In this document: positions 16,423-45,908 of the stretch, piece after piece
How positions within the stretch are numbered: the first letter of the stretch is position 1
Layout: each line of letters begins with the position of its first letter
From: Bacteroidota bacterium
Lineage (GTDB): Bacteria; Bacteroidota; Bacteroidia; B-17B0; Aurantibacillaceae
DNA length: 49,999 nt
Reading direction: 5' to 3'
Assembly: GCA_025363015.1 (NCBI GenBank)
Contig: JANYEQ010000015.1
Location: 1 to 49,999 of the forward strand
Translations under genes and position numbers: made by a program
Notes under the pieces: model-generated
The model's input: the letters and a program-made list of their open reading frames with translations, nothing else
The model's database searches: none
Told to the model about the DNA's origin: nothing

Positions 16423-16497
16423 GGTGGTGCCCACTGGGATCGAACCAGTGACACAAGGATTTTCAGTCCTTTGCTCTACCGACTGAGCTAGGGCACC
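16422..16497 (-). tRNA. tRNA-Phe (anticodon GAA)
   Basis: The minus strand reads GGTGCCCTAGCTCAGTCGG at the 5' end, an anticodon arm AAGGACTGAAAATCCTT with GAA in the loop, a T arm CACTGGTTCGATCCCAGTG, and GGGCACC-A-CCA. The seven-base acceptor stem pairs fully and CCA is encoded. The length is 76 bases. Its 3' end faces the metal block and the recombinase remnant, the usual orientation of a tRNA used as an integration site. Confidence 0.97.
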
Positions 16498-39713: not shown

Positions 39714-40589
39714 ATGAAAGTTGCAGGTTTTACAATTATTAGAAATGCTATAAACTACGATTATCCTGTAATTGAAGCCATAACGTCTATTTTGCCAATT
39801 TGTGATATATTTTATGTTGGTGTAGGAAAAAGCGAAGACGAAACTCGTAAATTAATTGAATCAATTGCTTCTGATAAAATAAAAATTATAGATACTATAT
39901 GGGATGATAGCTTGCGCCAAGGAGGGAGAGTATTAGCCGAAGAAACTAATAAAGTGTTTGATACAATACCCAAAGAATACGATTGGTGTTTTTATATACA
40001 AAGTGATGAATGTGTGCACGAGCAAGATTTATCTACTATTAAAAACGCTATGTACCAATTTAAAGATAATACTAAGGTAGATGGATTGTTATTTAAGTAC
40101 AAACACTTTTATGGGCATTATAATTATATAGGTGCGGGGGGACGTTGGTATAAAAATGAAATTAGAATTATTAAAAATAATAAAATCATTCGTTCGTATA
40201 AAGATGCACAAGGTTTTAGAACCATTGATAATAAAAAATTAAATGTAAAAAAAATTAATGCATTCATCTATCATTATGGTTGGGTAAAGCCACCAAAAGC
40301 ACAACAAGCAAAGCAGCAAAGCTTTCATAAAATGTGGCATACAGATGAGTGGGTTCAAAAAAATATTGCTTTAGCCGATGAATTTGATTATAATATAATT
40401 GATATTTTACAAGAATACAAAGGCACACACCCTGCCGTTTTTACCAACCGTATACATAATGCAAATTGGAATTATGCGTATGATAAAACAAAAGTTAAGT
40501 TAAACACTAAATACAAATTTTTATTTTTTATTGAACAACTAACGGGGTGGCGCATTGGCGAAAATAAAAATTATAAACTTTTAAAATAA
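39714..40589 (+). CDS. Glycosyltransferase family 2-like protein
   Basis: This 291-residue protein begins with a GT-A-like start: KVAGFTIIRNAINYDYPVIE, then IFYVGVGKSEDET and WCFYIQSDECVHEQDL, with acidic residues in the place of the DxD metal site. The GLLFKYKHFYGHYNYIGAGG and RWYKNEIRII segments and an acidic/basic C-terminus match a family of small glycosyltransferases in Bacteroidota sugar clusters. There is no membrane segment. Both acceptor and donor are unknown. It is co-oriented with the Omp85 gene but 5 kb from the main polysaccharide block. Confidence 0.75.
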   Translation: MKVAGFTIIRNAINYDYPVIEAITSILPICDIFYVGVGKSEDETRKLIESIASDKIKIIDTIWDDSLRQGGRVLAEETNKVFDTIPKEYDWCFYIQSDECVHEQDLSTIKNAMYQFKDNTKVDGLLFKYKHFYGHYNYIGAGGRWYKNEIRIIKNNKIIRSYKDAQGFRTIDNKKLNVKKINAFIYHYGWVKPPKAQQAKQQSFHKMWHTDEWVQKNIALADEFDYNIIDILQEYKGTHPAVFTNRIHNANWNYAYDKTKVKLNTKYKFLFFIEQLTGWRIGENKNYKLLK

Positions 40590-40601
40590 ATTTTTACTTT
40601 A

Positions 40602-40850
40602 CTAAAGCTTGATTGTTTTATTAAACACTTTATCTATAGCTAAAGCTAGTGTGCGATCTTTATTAGTTATAATATTTCCAGCGTCGTGCGTAGATAAATA
40701 AATATTAACCTTATTATATTCGTTTGTCCACAAAGGATGATGTTTTTGCTTTTCTGAAAGTCGAGCTACTTTTGTCATAAAGGTAAAAGCAGTTTTAAAA
40801 TCTTTAAATAAAAAAACACGTTTTAATTGGTTATTTTCTTCTGTCCACAT
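40602..40850 (-). CDS. phhB: Pterin-4a-carbinolamine dehydratase
   Basis: This 82-residue protein regenerates the tetrahydropterin cofactor after phenylalanine hydroxylation by dehydrating 4a-hydroxytetrahydrobiopterin. The family motif is clear: KQKHHPLWTNEYNKVNIYLS and STHDAGNIITNKDRTLA, with the three active-site His residues (HHP and THD). The protein is short but complete for a PCD. It lies 30 bases downstream of phhA on the same strand, a classical functional pair. Confidence 0.93.
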   Translation of the reverse strand: MWTEENNQLKRVFLFKDFKTAFTFMTKVARLSEKQKHHPLWTNEYNKVNIYLSTHDAGNIITNKDRTLALAIDKVFNKTIKL

Positions 40851-40880
40851 AAAAGTAAAGGTCTAAATTTCTATTCAATT

Positions 40881-41621
40881 TTAATTAGTCAATGCTAAAT
40901 TATATTCTAACAGCGTTTCAATTTCGGTTAACGAATTATAAAGTTGTTTAAACGAATCGATAATAAAATACTTTTCTTGAAGTATATCTGTTTTATACTC
41001 AGTATTAAAAATGGTTTGCACGTTAAATGGTTGATGAATAACTTTATTACTTAAACAGTGCTCAGTTTCTTCTTTAGATGATAAAATACCAGCTCCATAA
41101 ATTTTTAATTGATTGTTTTCTTTAATTAATCCAAACTCTATGGTAAACCAGTATATTTTACCCAGTAATTCAATAGCCATTGGATTATTAATATGTCGCA
41201 ATGCAATATGACTAATACCTTTAAAAAAATTTACATAGGTTTGGTTGCTCAATAAAGGCACATGTGCAAACACATCATGAAACATATCTGGTTCTTCTAA
41301 ATAATCTAGTTGCTGTATACTTCGTAACCAACAAGTGGCTGTAAATTTTTGTTGTGAAAGAAAATTAAAAAATTCCTTTTGAGGGCTAATGTTTGGAACC
41401 ACCTCTAAACTCCAACCCGTTAGCCCGTTTAAAAGTATATTAACTTCGTTAAAATTAGGAATTTTATTTGCCGAAAATTTTATAATTTCTAAAGCCTTTA
41501 AATATTCAACCGAAACTACTGGAGTTAAAATTTTCATTTGCCGATTAAATAATGTTTCCCAAACTAAAAAATCTTGTTGGGTGTAATTTTTATATACTTG
41601 TGTAGTTGGTCTCATGTTCAT
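40881..41621 (-). CDS. phhA: Phenylalanine 4-monooxygenase
   Basis: This 246-residue monomeric bacterial enzyme converts Phe to Tyr with O2 and tetrahydropterin. Iron ligands are His115 and His120 in DMFHDVFAHVPLL and Glu162 in YWFTIEFGLIKE. Most family members have Gly where this has Ala (HDxFGH), a small oddity. It has no regulatory ACT domain, as usual in bacteria. A Tyr-rich leader peptide and a strong terminator lie directly upstream, so expression is likely tuned by aromatic amino acid supply. phhB follows it. Confidence 0.95.
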   Translation of the reverse strand: MNMRPTTQVYKNYTQQDFLVWETLFNRQMKILTPVVSVEYLKALEIIKFSANKIPNFNEVNILLNGLTGWSLEVVPNISPQKEFFNFLSQQKFTATCWLRSIQQLDYLEEPDMFHDVFAHVPLLSNQTYVNFFKGISHIALRHINNPMAIELLGKIYWFTIEFGLIKENNQLKIYGAGILSSKEETEHCLSNKVIHQPFNVQTIFNTEYKTDILQEKYFIIDSFKQLYNSLTEIETLLEYNLALTN

Positions 41622-41652
41622 TTTATTTATTTTTTAAGTTAATATAGTGCAT

Positions 41653-41684
41653 AAAAAAAGCCTGTTCGTTATGGAACAGGCTTT
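41653..41684 (-). terminator. Attenuator terminator upstream of phhA
   Basis: On the minus strand AAAGCCTGTTC-cataac-GAACAGGCTTT is a perfect 11-base stem followed by seven T. It lies between the leader peptide stop (41709) and the phhA start (41621), not after a gene, which is the position of an attenuator. Confidence 0.85.
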
Positions 41685-41708
41685 ATATATTGTTTTAAGG
41701 TTATTTGA

Positions 41709-41783
41709 TTATGAACAATACTTTGCTATTCCATGGTTATACCTTGGATAGTAATAATAAAAAGTATTGCTTATTTTTTGCAT
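41709..41783 (-). CDS. Tyr/Phe-rich leader peptide of the phhAB operon
   Basis: A 24-codon frame starts at ATG 41783 and stops at TAA 41709. It begins MQKISNTFYYYYPRY and continues NHGIAKYCS: a Phe codon, four consecutive Tyr codons (TAT TAT TAC TAT), then two further Tyr. The run of codons for the product of PhhA, followed by a terminator, is the hallmark of ribosome-mediated attenuation. The CCAAGGT...ACCATGG segment overlapping the Pro-Arg-Tyr-Asn-His codons can form a pause hairpin. TTG at 41814-41812 and TATATTTA at 41795-41788 may be the promoter, with a 16-base spacer. Confidence 0.8.
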   Translation of the reverse strand: MQKISNTFYYYYPRYNHGIAKYCS

Positions 41784-41872
41784 GATGTAAATATATAGTT
41801 TTTTTAACTTACAAATAATTATTTTTTACAAACGATAACTAATAATTAAATAGTGTTATAAAGTTTTAGATT

Positions 41873-43147
41873 CTACAGCCCCAATAAAACCTCTTCGGGT
41901 AATTTACCGCCAAATAAAATACGTGTAGGGTTTTCTAACATTTCTTTTACTTTAACTAAAAAACCTACGCTTTCACGCCCATCAATAATGCGGTGGTCGT
42001 AACTTAACGCAACATACATCATTGGACGAATAACCACTTGTCCGCTAACTGCCATTGGGCGTTCAACTACGTTATGCATTCCTAAAATAGCACTTTGTGG
42101 TGGGTTAATAATAGGAGTACTCATCATACTGCCAAATACGCCACCGTTAGTAATTGTAAAAGTTCCGCCTTCCATATCGGGTATTGATAGTTTACCGTCG
42201 CGGGCTTTTAATGCTAATTCTTTAATACCTTTTTCAATCTCTGCAAGGCTCATTAATTCGGCATTACGTAATACGGGCACCATTAAACCTTTTGGCGCAC
42301 TAACAGCAATACCAATATCACAATATTTATTATACACTAATTCTTCGCCATCAATCATGCCATTTACGGCTGGGAAATGGTACAATGCCTCGGTTACTGC
42401 TTTTGTAAAAAAGCTCATAAAGCCAACGTTAGTGCCATATACTTCTTTAAATTTATCTTTGTAACGTGCGCGTATATCGTAAATAGCGCTCATGTCTATT
42501 TCGTTAAAGGTAGTTAACATGGCGGTTTCGTTTTTAACGGCGACTAAACGTTTGGCTACTGTTTTACGAAGCGATGTCATTTTTGCACGGTCTTTTTCTC
42601 TGCCACCTTTCCAAGTATTACTTAATACTTGTTGTACGTTTGGTAAGCCATTTGATAAGGCGGCTAATACATCTTGTTTAGTAATACGCCCATCTTTACC
42701 ACTCCCGTTTAATTGATTGCCAGAAATATTATTTTCGGCCATTATTTTAGCGGCTGCAATGCTGGGTGTGCCTGTAGCATAAGTAGATTTTCCTTCGACT
42801 CCGCTCAGGATTACAGAATTGGCGGTTGAGCTTGTCGAGACCTCTTTTTTTATTTCAACTTTAGGTTCAGTTTTTGTACTAACGGTTTCTGCCTTTGCTT
42901 CTGGTTTAAACGAGGTATCTACTTTTACAACAACTTGTCCTACTTTAACGGTATCGCCTTCGGCAGCTAATATTTCTATTTTACCGCTTTCTTCTGCGTT
43001 TAAAGTAAGGGTTGCTTTATCGGAATCAATCTCAGCCAGCACTTCGTCTTTTTCAACAACGTCACCGGTGTTTTTTATCCACTTTGCAATTACTACTTCT
43101 GTAATTGATTCGCCCGGGCTTGGTACTTTTAATTCTACTATTGCCAT
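41873..43147 (-). CDS. sucB: 2-oxoglutarate dehydrogenase E2 (dihydrolipoyl succinyltransferase)
   Basis: This 424-residue enzyme transfers succinyl groups to CoA in the citric acid cycle. The lipoyl domain (1-77) carries the modified Lys44 in [10 protein letters not shown] linker precedes the E1/E3-binding domain (about 127-168, [30 protein letters not shown]). The catalytic domain ends [20 protein letters not shown] with the active-site His and Asp. The linker contains a foreign-looking stretch at residues 102-119, encoded by two palindromic repeat units. sucA lies upstream on the same strand with a 37-base gap. Confidence 0.96.
42792..42842. repeat. Dispersed-type palindromic repeat inserted in frame in sucB
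   Basis: CCTTCGACTCCGCTCAGG (42792-42809) and GGTTGAGCTTGTCGAGACC (42824-42842) face each other across 14 bases. TCGAC/GTCGA and GCTCA/TGAGC pair, giving a long hairpin. The two units match a repeat sequence that I have repeatedly seen scattered between genes in Bacteroidota genomes. Here they are translated, as part of the flexible linker of SucB, and are G+C-richer than the surrounding gene. Confidence 0.75.
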
Positions 43148-43184
43148 AAATAAATTTTAAATGTTAAATTATATTTTTTTAATA

Positions 43185-45908
43185 TTATTTTACCAGTACT
43201 TTGGTAAATATAGTTGCCATTATTGCTTCATTTTCGGCATTATGGCGCTTGCTAAAGCCAGTTGCTGGGCTTGCGGCTTCATCTCTACCAATGTATTTTA
43301 AGTTTAATTTACGTAAGTTATGATCTACAAAACGCCAAGCGCCCATGTTTTCACTTTCCTCTTGAACATATAAAAACTGGGTTGCATTTTTGTATTTATC
43401 TAAAACTAATTGTAATTGTTTGTGTGGAAAAGGGTATAATTGTTCTAAACGAATAAAGGCAATATCAGTAACTCCTTCTTTTTCGCGTTGTTCAATTAAA
43501 TCGTAATAAATCTTTCCGCTACACAAGGCAATGCGTTTTATATCTTTTGCATTTGCTTTTGGATCGTCTAATACTTCTTTAAAATTTAATTTTGTGAAAT
43601 CATCAACCGTTGATACACAGGTTGGATAACGCAATAATTTTTTAGGTGTAAAACAAATTAAAGGTTTTCTAAATTCTCGTTTTAATTGACGACGCAATAC
43701 ATGAAATTGTTGAGCTGGAGTAGTTGTGTTTACAATTTGCATATTATTTTCGGCACACATTTGTAAAAAACGCTCTAAACGCGCACTGCTATGTTCTGGG
43801 CCTTGCCCTTCGTAACCGTGAGGTAATAGCACAACCAAGCCATTCATACGGCGCCACTTGTATTCTGACGAAGATAAATATTGGTCGATAATAATTTGAG
43901 CACCATTAAAAAAGTCGCCAAACTGTGCTTCCCAAATTGTTAAAGCATTTGGTGCGGCATAGGCATAACCGTATTCAAAACCTAACACGCCATATTCTGA
44001 AAGTAAGGAGTTATAAATTTCTATTTTGCCAGTTGTGCCTAAATTATTTAAGGGCGTGTATTCTTCTTCACTGTCTTCTACTTTAATAACTGCATGGCGG
44101 TGTGAGAAAGTGCCACGCTCTACATCTTGTCCGCTAAAACGTACGTGATGCCCCTCATGCATTAAACTAGCATATGCCAACAATTCGCCCATTGCCCAAT
44201 CGTAATTATTATTGGTAATCATGTTTTGGCGATCGTTAAATAGTTTTTCTATTTTATTAAAAAACTTTTTATTTTTTGGTAATTGGCTTGATTTTGTAGC
44301 TAGTTCTAAAAATAATTTTGCATCAATAGCCGTTTTTGGCGATTCGTCAAAATCAGTTGCTGTAGCCATTTTAATGTTATTCCAACTGCCTTGTAAAAAC
44401 GAAGTCATTTTTGCTTTTTCGGTTTTGCGGGCTTCGTCTAAATTTTGTTCTAACTCGTTTTTAAATTGTGTTTCAATTGTTTTTATTTCATCAATAGTAA
44501 ACGATTTTTCGTCAATTAATTTTTGAGCATAAATTTCTTTTGGGTTAGGATGTTTTGCAATTTCTTTATACAACAGGGGTTGTGTAAAGCGAGGCTCATC
44601 TCCTTCGTTATGTCCGTATTTACGATAACATAACACATCAATAAACACATCTTTACCGAAAGTTTGACGGTAATCCATAGCTAATTTTGCAACTAATGCT
44701 AAGGCCTCTACATCATCACCATTTACGTGAAATACGGGCGAAAGCACTACTTTAGCCACATCAGTACAATAAATAGAAGAGCGGGCATCAATAAAATTAG
44801 TTGTAAAACTTACTTGATTATTGATAATGAAATGTACAGTACCACCAGTTTTGTAGCCATCTAACTGGCTCATTTGTATTACTTCGTAAACAATGCCTTG
44901 TGCAGCAATGGCTCCATCGCCATGAATGGAAATAGAACAGGCTTTTTTATTATCGCCTTTGTGGCGAATATCAATTTTAGCACGTGTAATACCGCCTACA
45001 ACGGGGGCAACGGTTTCTAAATGTGAAGGGTTTGGCGTTAATGAAATATGAACTTGTTTACCTGAATCGCTTTTAATATCGCTACTATAGCCCATGTGAT
45101 ATTTTACGTCACCATCAAACACACTGTCTTCGCTAGGGCGGCCTTCAAATTCGGTAAAAATATCTTTAGTGGGTTTGTTCATAATGTTTGCCAATACGTT
45201 TAAACGCCCACGATGCGCCATACCAATAACATAATCCTCAATCCCTAATTTAACGCCATGCTCCATTAAGGTATTTAAAGCTGGTAAAAACGATTCGCCA
45301 CCCTCTAATGAAAAACGTTTTTGCCCCACAAATTTGGTAGCTAAAAAATTTTCGAAGGTAACGGCTTGTATTAATTTATTAAGAATTACTTTTTTTTCGT
45401 CTTTGTTAAAGTTTGGAATATTTTTTGATTTTTCAATACGGTCTTGTAACCATTTTGTTTCTTCGGGGTTTCGTAAAAAGGCATATTCAACCCCAATACT
45501 AGCACAATAGGTAGTTTCTAAATGAACAATAATATCTTTTAGTTTTGCAGCGCCAATACCAATTTGGTTACCTGCCTGAAAAACGGTTTCTAAATCTTTA
45601 TGCGATAATTCGAAATTTTCTAGCGCTAAAGTTGGTGTATATGTTCGGCGTTGACGAACAGGGTTGGTGCGTGTAAATAGATGTCCGCGTGAACGGTAAC
45701 CGTTTATTAGGTTTATTACTTTAAATTCTTTAGTAACATTTTCGGGTATGGCGCCGTTTGAGGATGAGTAATCTTTTTGAGCAAATTCAAATCCTTTAAA
45801 AAAATCTTGCCAAGTTTTATCAACCGAATTGTTATCGTTTGTGTATTGTGTAAAAAGCTGTTCAATAGCGTTTACATCGCTGGTGCCTAAGTATGAAAAT
45901 TTATCCAT
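43185..45908 (-). CDS. sucA: 2-oxoglutarate dehydrogenase E1
   Basis: This 907-residue enzyme is counted from the ATG at 45908 (MDKFSYLGTSDVNAIEQLF); an upstream in-frame start would add 11 atypical residues. It decarboxylates 2-oxoglutarate with thiamine diphosphate. Visible family motifs are QKRFSLEGGESFLPALN, GMAHRGRLNVLANI, KYHMGYSSD, SIHGDGAIAAQGIVYE, CYRKYGHNEGDEPRFTQPLL, RHAVIKVEDSEEEYTPLN and PHGYEGQGPEHSSARLERFL. The length fits the family. It forms an operon with sucB. Confidence 0.97.
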   Translation of the reverse strand: MDKFSYLGTSDVNAIEQLFTQYTNDNNSVDKTWQDFFKGFEFAQKDYSSSNGAIPENVTKEFKVINLINGYRSRGHLFTRTNPVRQRRTYTPTLALENFELSHKDLETVFQAGNQIGIGAAKLKDIIVHLETTYCASIGVEYAFLRNPEETKWLQDRIEKSKNIPNFNKDEKKVILNKLIQAVTFENFLATKFVGQKRFSLEGGESFLPALNTLMEHGVKLGIEDYVIGMAHRGRLNVLANIMNKPTKDIFTEFEGRPSEDSVFDGDVKYHMGYSSDIKSDSGKQVHISLTPNPSHLETVAPVVGGITRAKIDIRHKGDNKKACSISIHGDGAIAAQGIVYEVIQMSQLDGYKTGGTVHFIINNQVSFTTNFIDARSSIYCTDVAKVVLSPVFHVNGDDVEALALVAKLAMDYRQTFGKDVFIDVLCYRKYGHNEGDEPRFTQPLLYKEIAKHPNPKEIYAQKLIDEKSFTIDEIKTIETQFKNELEQNLDEARKTEKAKMTSFLQGSWNNIKMATATDFDESPKTAIDAKLFLELATKSSQLPKNKKFFNKIEKLFNDRQNMITNNNYDWAMGELLAYASLMHEGHHVRFSGQDVERGTFSHRHAVIKVEDSEEEYTPLNNLGTTGKIEIYNSLLSEYGVLGFEYGYAYAAPNALTIWEAQFGDFFNGAQIIIDQYLSSSEYKWRRMNGLVVLLPHGYEGQGPEHSSARLERFLQMCAENNMQIVNTTTPAQQFHVLRRQLKREFRKPLICFTPKKLLRYPTCVSTVDDFTKLNFKEVLDDPKANAKDIKRIALCSGKIYYDLIEQREKEGVTDIAFIRLEQLYPFPHKQLQLVLDKYKNATQFLYVQEESENMGAWRFVDHNLRKLNLKYIGRDEAASPATGFSKRHNAENEAIMATIFTKVLVK

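Follow-up and report, generated by a model that had tools for sequence, protein, structure and literature searches.

A putative tyrosine-sensing, ribosome-mediated attenuator upstream of phhA in Bacteroidota

The region between sucB and phhA, the latter encoding phenylalanine 4-monooxygenase, very probably harbors a ribosome-mediated transcription attenuator that responds to charged tRNA-Tyr and governs phhA, probably together with an adjoining phhB-like gene. The features that led us to this reading all lie on the (−) strand of the window, by which we mean the whole 49,999-nt stretch of DNA that was analysed, and are given here in the direction of transcription:

41873–43147 (−): sucB (2-oxoglutarate dehydrogenase E2), the next gene upstream, same strand (ORF reading, family search)
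41709–41783 (−): leader peptide ORF MQKISNTFYYYYPRYNHGIAKYCS, 24 codons, stop included (sequence, ORF reading)
41761–41769 (−): region 1 (CAATACTTT), 5' arm of the 1:2 hairpin, immediately before the Tyr run (fold, covariation)
41748–41759 (−): four Tyr codons in a row, TAT TAT TAC TAT (sequence)
41726–41734 (−): region 2a (ATGGAATAG), antiterminator arm, pairs with region 3 (arm swap, covariation, fold)
41716–41724 (−): region 2b (AAAGTATTG), 3' arm of the 1:2 hairpin (fold, covariation)
41657–41684 (−): intrinsic terminator hairpin 3:4, 11 bp with a 6-nt loop, −15.5 kcal/mol (terminator scan, fold)
41671–41679 (−): region 3 (CTGTTCCAT), common to antiterminator 2:3 and terminator 3:4 (arm swap, covariation, fold)
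40881–41621 (−): phhA, phenylalanine 4-monooxygenase, the putative regulated gene (ORF reading, family search)
40602–40850 (−): phhB-like gene for 4a-hydroxytetrahydrobiopterin dehydratase, 30 nt 3' of phhA (NCBIfam)

The initial annotation of this site had proposed a 24-codon leader with Phe and four consecutive Tyr codons, a pause-hairpin candidate and a strong terminator before phhA. All three were recovered, as the ORF at 41783–41709 (−), the 1:2 hairpin (41769–41761 with 41724–41716) and the 11-bp stem at 41684–41657 with a run of seven T behind it.

In the mechanism that we infer, transcription would start at or beside the leader ATG. When tyrosine is plentiful, the ribosome would reach the leader stop codon and cover region 2, leaving the 3:4 hairpin to terminate transcription before phhA. 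When tyrosine is short, the ribosome would stall on the Tyr run and cover region 1, region 2 would pair with region 3, and the terminator would be blocked; phhA would then be transcribed and tyrosine made from phenylalanine, which is probably imported. The elements expected of an attenuator can be seen at the locus: a leader ORF with a codon run for one amino acid, an intrinsic terminator (3:4) between leader and gene in both sequence and fold, a 2:3 antiterminator that is exclusive with it, and a 1:2 hairpin that a stalled ribosome could open, region 1 lying directly before the Tyr run. The enzyme would also make the very amino acid that the codons specify, judging from its annotation and from the absence of TyrA and PheA matches. 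By sequence, the attenuator on phhA appears to be real, conserved and mechanistically of the classical kind, and a biosynthetic meaning of the switch is probable.

The leader reads F-Y-Y-Y-Y from the codons TTT TAT TAT TAC TAT, with a single Phe codon immediately 5' of the Tyr run. The T run behind the terminator stem reaches 41653 (−), and 35 nt separate the stem from the phhA ATG at 41621. Folding of the 144-nt leader gave −31.5 kcal/mol (z = −5.8), and none of 200 shuffles was equally stable. The FYYYY string by itself is nothing unusual in the 3.3 Mb window genome, which has 7 copies of it and 8 of the reversed pattern; among the seven, only the window copy has a terminator, by our terminator rule, within 150 nt on its 3' side. 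We made a covariance model from the window leader and 11 related leaders, which scored 125.4 bits at the leader, a value high by construction since the window leader is itself part of the model, versus 41.2 bits for the best other match listed in the window genome. At E up to 1 the model matched in 86 of 87 family genomes, and matches of 40–54 bits away from phhA were taken as noise. What rises above chance appears to be the combination of the parts and their conservation, not the FYYYY string alone. One further match, of 123.6 bits (G065:C473:7842–7975; loci L173 and L180), sits 45 nt short of the end of its contig. Together with the lack of a phhA match in that genome, this suggests that phhA was lost there at an assembly gap.

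The initial annotation had looked to conserved Tyr runs upstream of phhA in related genomes, and these we found in 59 non-redundant Bacteroidota loci. The phhA loci came from the 87 family genomes, the best 80 of 569 relatives (named contigs) and a class sample of 396 genomes. We screened 152 of them, 107 from the family and named contigs and 45 from the class sample, for a strict leader (3 Tyr in 6 codons, plus a terminator), a rule that misses L010 and the Algoriphagus-type leaders described below; L015, L032 and L062 were left out for too short an upstream sequence. Leader and terminator were present at 68 loci, and removal of nine duplicates left the 59, of which 37 are in genomes assigned to the class and 22 in named contigs, for most of which the label is Bacteroidetes or Bacteroidota. 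Further duplicate loci (e.g. L029 and L153) stay in the 152-locus screen, none of them with a strict leader, and L045 and L067, which have a Tyr-rich ORF without a terminator, were not counted. At the 59 loci the terminator follows the leader stop by 20–42 nt. Within the family, phhA is present in 27 of 87 genomes, and 26 of these 27 loci have adequate upstream sequence; 24 carry the strict leader and terminator, one a weaker version (L010) and one none (L027, in G050). In the class sample, 99 genomes had a PF00351 match, 49 of them a strong single-domain match, and strict leaders occurred in 10 of the 21 GTDB families having single-domain PhhA. Outside the class, where 48 genomes matched, none of the 34 single-domain phhA loci examined had a Tyr leader (14 of the longer type were left out), and the four loci of a ~590-residue hydroxylase type (L163–L166) likewise had none. 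On a PhhA tree, built without the too-short G324, the leader label changes at least 7 times on supported branches, indicating that the leader has been gained or lost repeatedly.

Another, strongly conserved leader type, [MV]NPTPRT[YF][VI]HHS.., was seen at L070–L106 (mostly Algoriphagus, e.g. L086, L089 and L097). It is His-rich as well as Tyr-rich, mostly has a terminator behind it, and begins 159–370 nt upstream of the phhA start. In the class sample, the five genomes of this family that have no strict leader are all TyrA+.

We then compared the 88 distinct terminators preceding phhA with 169 others in the same DNA, counting among the latter those at phhA loci outside the class. A Tyr-rich ORF ends 15–45 nt ahead of 58 of the former and 1 of the latter. 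These counts replace 59/92 versus 4/162, obtained with duplicates retained, in which the four were one SodB-like gene end. His-rich ORFs preceded 24/88 versus 1/169 terminators, and Phe-rich ORFs 0/88 versus 3/169. The comparison bears on whether the window hairpin is a mere sucAB terminator and the Tyr-rich frame an ORF arisen by chance in AT-rich intergenic DNA, as might be proposed given that sucB lies upstream on the same strand, that the hairpin is the only terminator-like site seen on this strand in a scan of 40500–43500, and that the FYYYY string is common in the window genome. That account is very unlikely: the Tyr leader and terminator recur before phhA at narrow spacing in 59 loci, and a chance ORF was rejected on the rarity of Tyr-rich ORFs before the 169 other terminators. 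The same counts speak to which amino acid would be sensed. The Phe codon right before the Tyr run, a match to the Rfam Phe_leader (RF01859) at 22.5 bits and the Phe-Tyr-Phe leader reported for C. glutamicum aroF in part of PMC11802643 would suit an element that senses phenylalanine, like the E. coli pheA leader, or Phe and Tyr jointly. We consider this extremely improbable, and Phe sensing was rejected on two grounds: no Phe-rich ORF precedes any of the 88 phhA-upstream terminators, 58 of which follow a Tyr-rich one, and the Phe_leader score falls far under the gathering score of 55.

A riboregulator that binds a protein or a tRNA, in the manner of a T-box, with the coding frame a coincidence, would be in line with stable alternative folds, but it is barely credible given that the conserved features are the in-frame Tyr run and the stop-to-terminator distance. 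No Rfam family matched at gathering level at the leader in the window or in the 14 relatives searched, on which ground a known Rfam family was rejected; Thr_leader (RF00506) reached 29.4 bits, also under a gathering score of 55, and T-box had no gathering-level match in the window and none at the leader among matches with E up to 5. The only gathering-level Rfam match in the whole window is a tRNA at 16425–16497 (−). Close to phhA of one relative there is a cobalamin riboswitch (L003:1163–1384, (−), 95 bits).

The attenuator reading entails mutually exclusive terminator and antiterminator forms, as the initial annotation had anticipated, and both the fold and an arm-swap test bore these out. 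The ribosome footprint is about 15 nt. RNA 41744–41671, in which 2a is free with the ribosome at the first Tyr codon, folds as the antiterminator (−13.5 kcal/mol), and RNA from 41697 on, the part not covered by a ribosome at the stop codon, folds as the terminator (−16.8 kcal/mol). Once the whole terminator is transcribed, 3:4 beats 2:3 in the fold even with the stalled ribosome included, so the switch must be kinetic, with timing deciding the outcome. Compared with 500 dinucleotide shuffles, the antiterminator had a mean z of −2.05 and p<0.05 in 33 of 59 loci, and in the other 26 it was not individually better than shuffles at that level. When arms were swapped across species, cognate 2:3 pairing came to −11.5 versus −8.8 kcal/mol for swapped arms, and in the 38 diverged loci to −11.3 versus −8.5 kcal/mol; in each case none of 20000 permutations was as strong. 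The cognate terminator arm was the best of all arms in just 9 of 59 loci (median rank 7). That 2:3 pairing follows species is a further point against a mere sucAB terminator.

The covariation that had been expected among relatives was found on one set of measures and was weaker on another. Alignment A1 holds 12 of the 59 leaders, picked as more alignable and aligned without reference to structure. Its covariation scores for 1:2, 3:4 and 2:3 were each matched by 0 of 500 shuffles, which related sequences may surpass without any structure, and lay above all slid controls; 75%, 95% and 93% of cells, respectively, were paired. On two measures less prone to relatedness the signal was weaker: for 1:2, 3:4 and 2:3, respectively, 32, 76 and 26 of 500 shuffles had at least as many pairs changed on both sides, and 16, 400 and 103 at least as many further pair types. 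For this reason the case for the antiterminator is built chiefly on arm swapping and on the dinucleotide shuffles. Folding also pointed to a longer antiterminator helix, in which 2b pairs with AACAATAT, but covariation lent it no support.

The position of a promoter element before the leader was an unexpected finding. Two boxes lie upstream of the leader ATG, and we take the TTTG at 41812–41815 to be a −33 box of the Bacteroidota sigma-A type, from the consensus:

41812–41815 (−): −33 box TTTG, 16 nt before the −7 box (sequence)
41788–41795 (−): −7 box TATATTTA, agreeing with TAnnTTTG at 5 of its 6 specified positions, with a 4-nt gap to the leader ATG (consensus from part of PMC9723704)

The F. 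psychrophilum −7 box is placed at −12 to −5 in part of PMC9723704, so a 4-nt gap sets the predicted transcription start on the A of the leader ATG. Taking as leader start the ATG of the longest frame not exceeding 45 codons, or the called start if there was no ATG, and counting a −7 box at 5 or more of the 6 specified bases of TAnnTTTG, we found a gap of exactly 4 nt between box and leader start in 20 of 59 loci and of 4–5 nt in 26 of 59 (19 of the 38 diverged loci). Against these 26, 1000 shuffles of the same upstream DNA averaged 1.9 and reached 7 at most; by the same rule, the other 33 leaders have no box at this spacing. Before the phhA start codon itself, −7 boxes showed no peak. The transcript from which the leader peptide is read is thus probably leaderless. 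Leaderless starts are uncommon in the phylum: they account for 5.5% of mapped mRNAs in F. psychrophilum, and about 3.7% of 5' UTRs in B. thetaiotaomicron are shorter than 10 nt. Here they are predicted to serve regulatory peptides.

Turning to the regulated gene, the phhA product scored 261.8 bits against NF008877 (cut-off 247) and 246.8 bits against TIGR01267, slightly below the cut-off of 264.75. The phhB-like gene, whose top NCBIfam match of 88.3 bits is below the cut-off of 108, is probably co-transcribed with phhA; such a neighbour is not general, being found at 5 of 55 leader loci. The gene 5' of phhA varies: it is HPPD in G406 (TyrA+, leader absent), DAHP synthase in G201 (L139) and trpA in a Ferruginibacter MAG (L054). 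At L139 the DAHP synthase precedes an Algoriphagus-type leader, and several other loci have a similar upstream protein end. In the window's own upstream neighbour, the sucB linker at 42792–42843 (−) contains CCTTCGACTCCGCTCAGG and GTCGAGACC on the (+) strand, which resemble a palindromic genome repeat and look, by eye, like an in-frame insertion.

The initial annotation saw in this locus a biosynthetic use of an enzyme usually considered catabolic. The absence of TyrA backs that view, with the nuance that no prephenate dehydratase was found, so that the substrate would be imported phenylalanine. The window genome (G000) has chorismate synthase, as do 83 of 87 family genomes, and gave no match to prephenate dehydratase (PF00800) in the family search; 7 of 87 family genomes have one. 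By the same kind of search it has no TyrA, its sole PF02153 match (20 bits, below cut-off) being ProC by NCBIfam. PF02153 matched in 20 of 87 family genomes, five times above cut-off, and only G050, whose phhA is without the leader, had a strong TyrA match (138.7 bits; identity confirmed). The matches in G005 and G052 were rejected as TyrA, as they adjoin an alaS-like gene and have ProC-like N-termini by eye, and the remaining 16 were all <28 bits. PhhA thus looks like the host's only tyrosine route; with no prephenate dehydratase match, it would act on phenylalanine taken up from outside and not as the closing step of de novo synthesis. Given how few family genomes have prephenate dehydratase (7/87) or TyrA (1/87), most look like Phe and Tyr auxotrophs, and the 27 with phhA would require only Phe.

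Across the class sample, the leader was present in 21 of 32 TyrA− genomes versus 1 of 17 TyrA+ genomes (Fisher p = 5.5e-5), and with the window's own family removed in 13 of 24 versus 1 of 17 (p = 0.002). This comparison covers 49 of the 99 PF00351 genomes, those with a single-domain match >119 bits; the longer type and the low-scoring G214, G354 and G360 were excluded. Counted by GTDB family, the link was not significant (9/16 versus 1/6, p = 0.16), nor was it when independent pairs were taken from the PhhA tree (median p 0.25), the pairs being too few to reach 0.05. The strict leader is absent in 11 of the 32 TyrA− genomes. Relatives having phhA without a Tyr-rich frame or terminator, the case that the initial annotation had set against its own proposal, do occur, in 27 of the 49 class-sample genomes (16 TyrA+ and 11 TyrA−); in 7 of the 11, phhA starts <100 nt from a same-strand upstream gene.

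HPPD scored over cut-off in 81 of 87 family genomes, the window genome included, so tyrosine breakdown probably coexists with the phhA switch, and PhhA may contribute to it. It is nevertheless unlikely that PhhA is simply catabolic here, passing Phe via Tyr to HPPD, with a leader that just trims expression. HPPD is found in most family genomes with or without phhA and in far more than the 27 of 87 that have phhA, hence phhA is not tied to it; readthrough induced by starvation would have the wrong sign for a catabolic gene; and where HPPD lies directly before phhA, in G406 and G292 (by eye), the genome is TyrA+ and has no Tyr leader. HmgA gave 19 matches of just 73–81 bits at class level at an E cut of 1e-20, a cut that is uninformative on absence.

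More broadly, the chances seem to us evenly divided on whether these Tyr-specific attenuators are widespread in Bacteroidia, leaderless, and mark a shift of PhhA from catabolic enzyme to sole Tyr-making enzyme in TyrA-lacking lineages, some of which, the present one included, also lack PheA and would depend on external Phe as animals do. The attenuator would bring tyrosine into the group of amino acids that ribosome-mediated attenuation senses, and would provide a sequence mark separating biosynthetic from catabolic phenylalanine hydroxylases, a distinction beyond the reach of gene annotation. The leader would also help explain how tyrosine is made in Bacteroidota without TyrA.

Ribosome-mediated attenuators are known for the trp, his, phe (pheL-pheA, pheST), leu and thr operons. 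The phhA leader resembles these in its regulatory codon run, its 1:2, 2:3 and 3:4 helices and its terminator before the structural gene, but unlike them it uses Tyr codons and precedes phhA. It also differs from classical attenuators in that, at many loci, the −7 box puts the leader start codon at the predicted first base of the transcript. Mycobacterial attenuators with leaderless polycysteine ORFs are said to have been described by Canestrari in 2020; resembling what is predicted for the phhA leader, these would be leaderless, amino-acid-responsive leader ORFs, differing in the amino acid (cysteine) and the phylum. In keeping with the initial annotation, which knew of no attenuation at phhA, neither a phhA attenuator nor a Tyr-only leader was among the matches listed in the open literature (titles and abstract openings). 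In the same phylum as the leader's host, part of PMC9723704 gives strong indications that leader peptides attenuate amino-acid biosynthesis operons of Flavobacterium psychrophilum, and describes structured 5' elements that precede pheA and hisG and are conserved across the family; its main text uses neither the word 'tyrosine' nor the word 'phenylalanine'. Biosynthetic phenylalanine hydroxylase itself is not new, as a section of the GapMind paper (PMC7311316) already presents it as a tyrosine biosynthetic enzyme. That section notes that E. vietnamensis retains prephenate or arogenate dehydrogenase and, unlike the case made here, describes no regulation. A prediction of attenuators in front of tyrA operons dates from 2005, in part of PMC1173090, where phhA figures in a catabolic context only, with PhhR and sigma-54 or Lrp/AsnC type regulators; those attenuators and the phhA leader are both proposed for tyrosine-pathway operons, the former on tyrA and not phhA. 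Among aromatic-pathway attenuators, the C. glutamicum aroR leader before aroF encodes Phe-Tyr-Phe, and part of the review PMC11802643 describes the aroF operon as unaffected by Tyr availability, whereas the phhA leaders carry Tyr runs without Phe enrichment.
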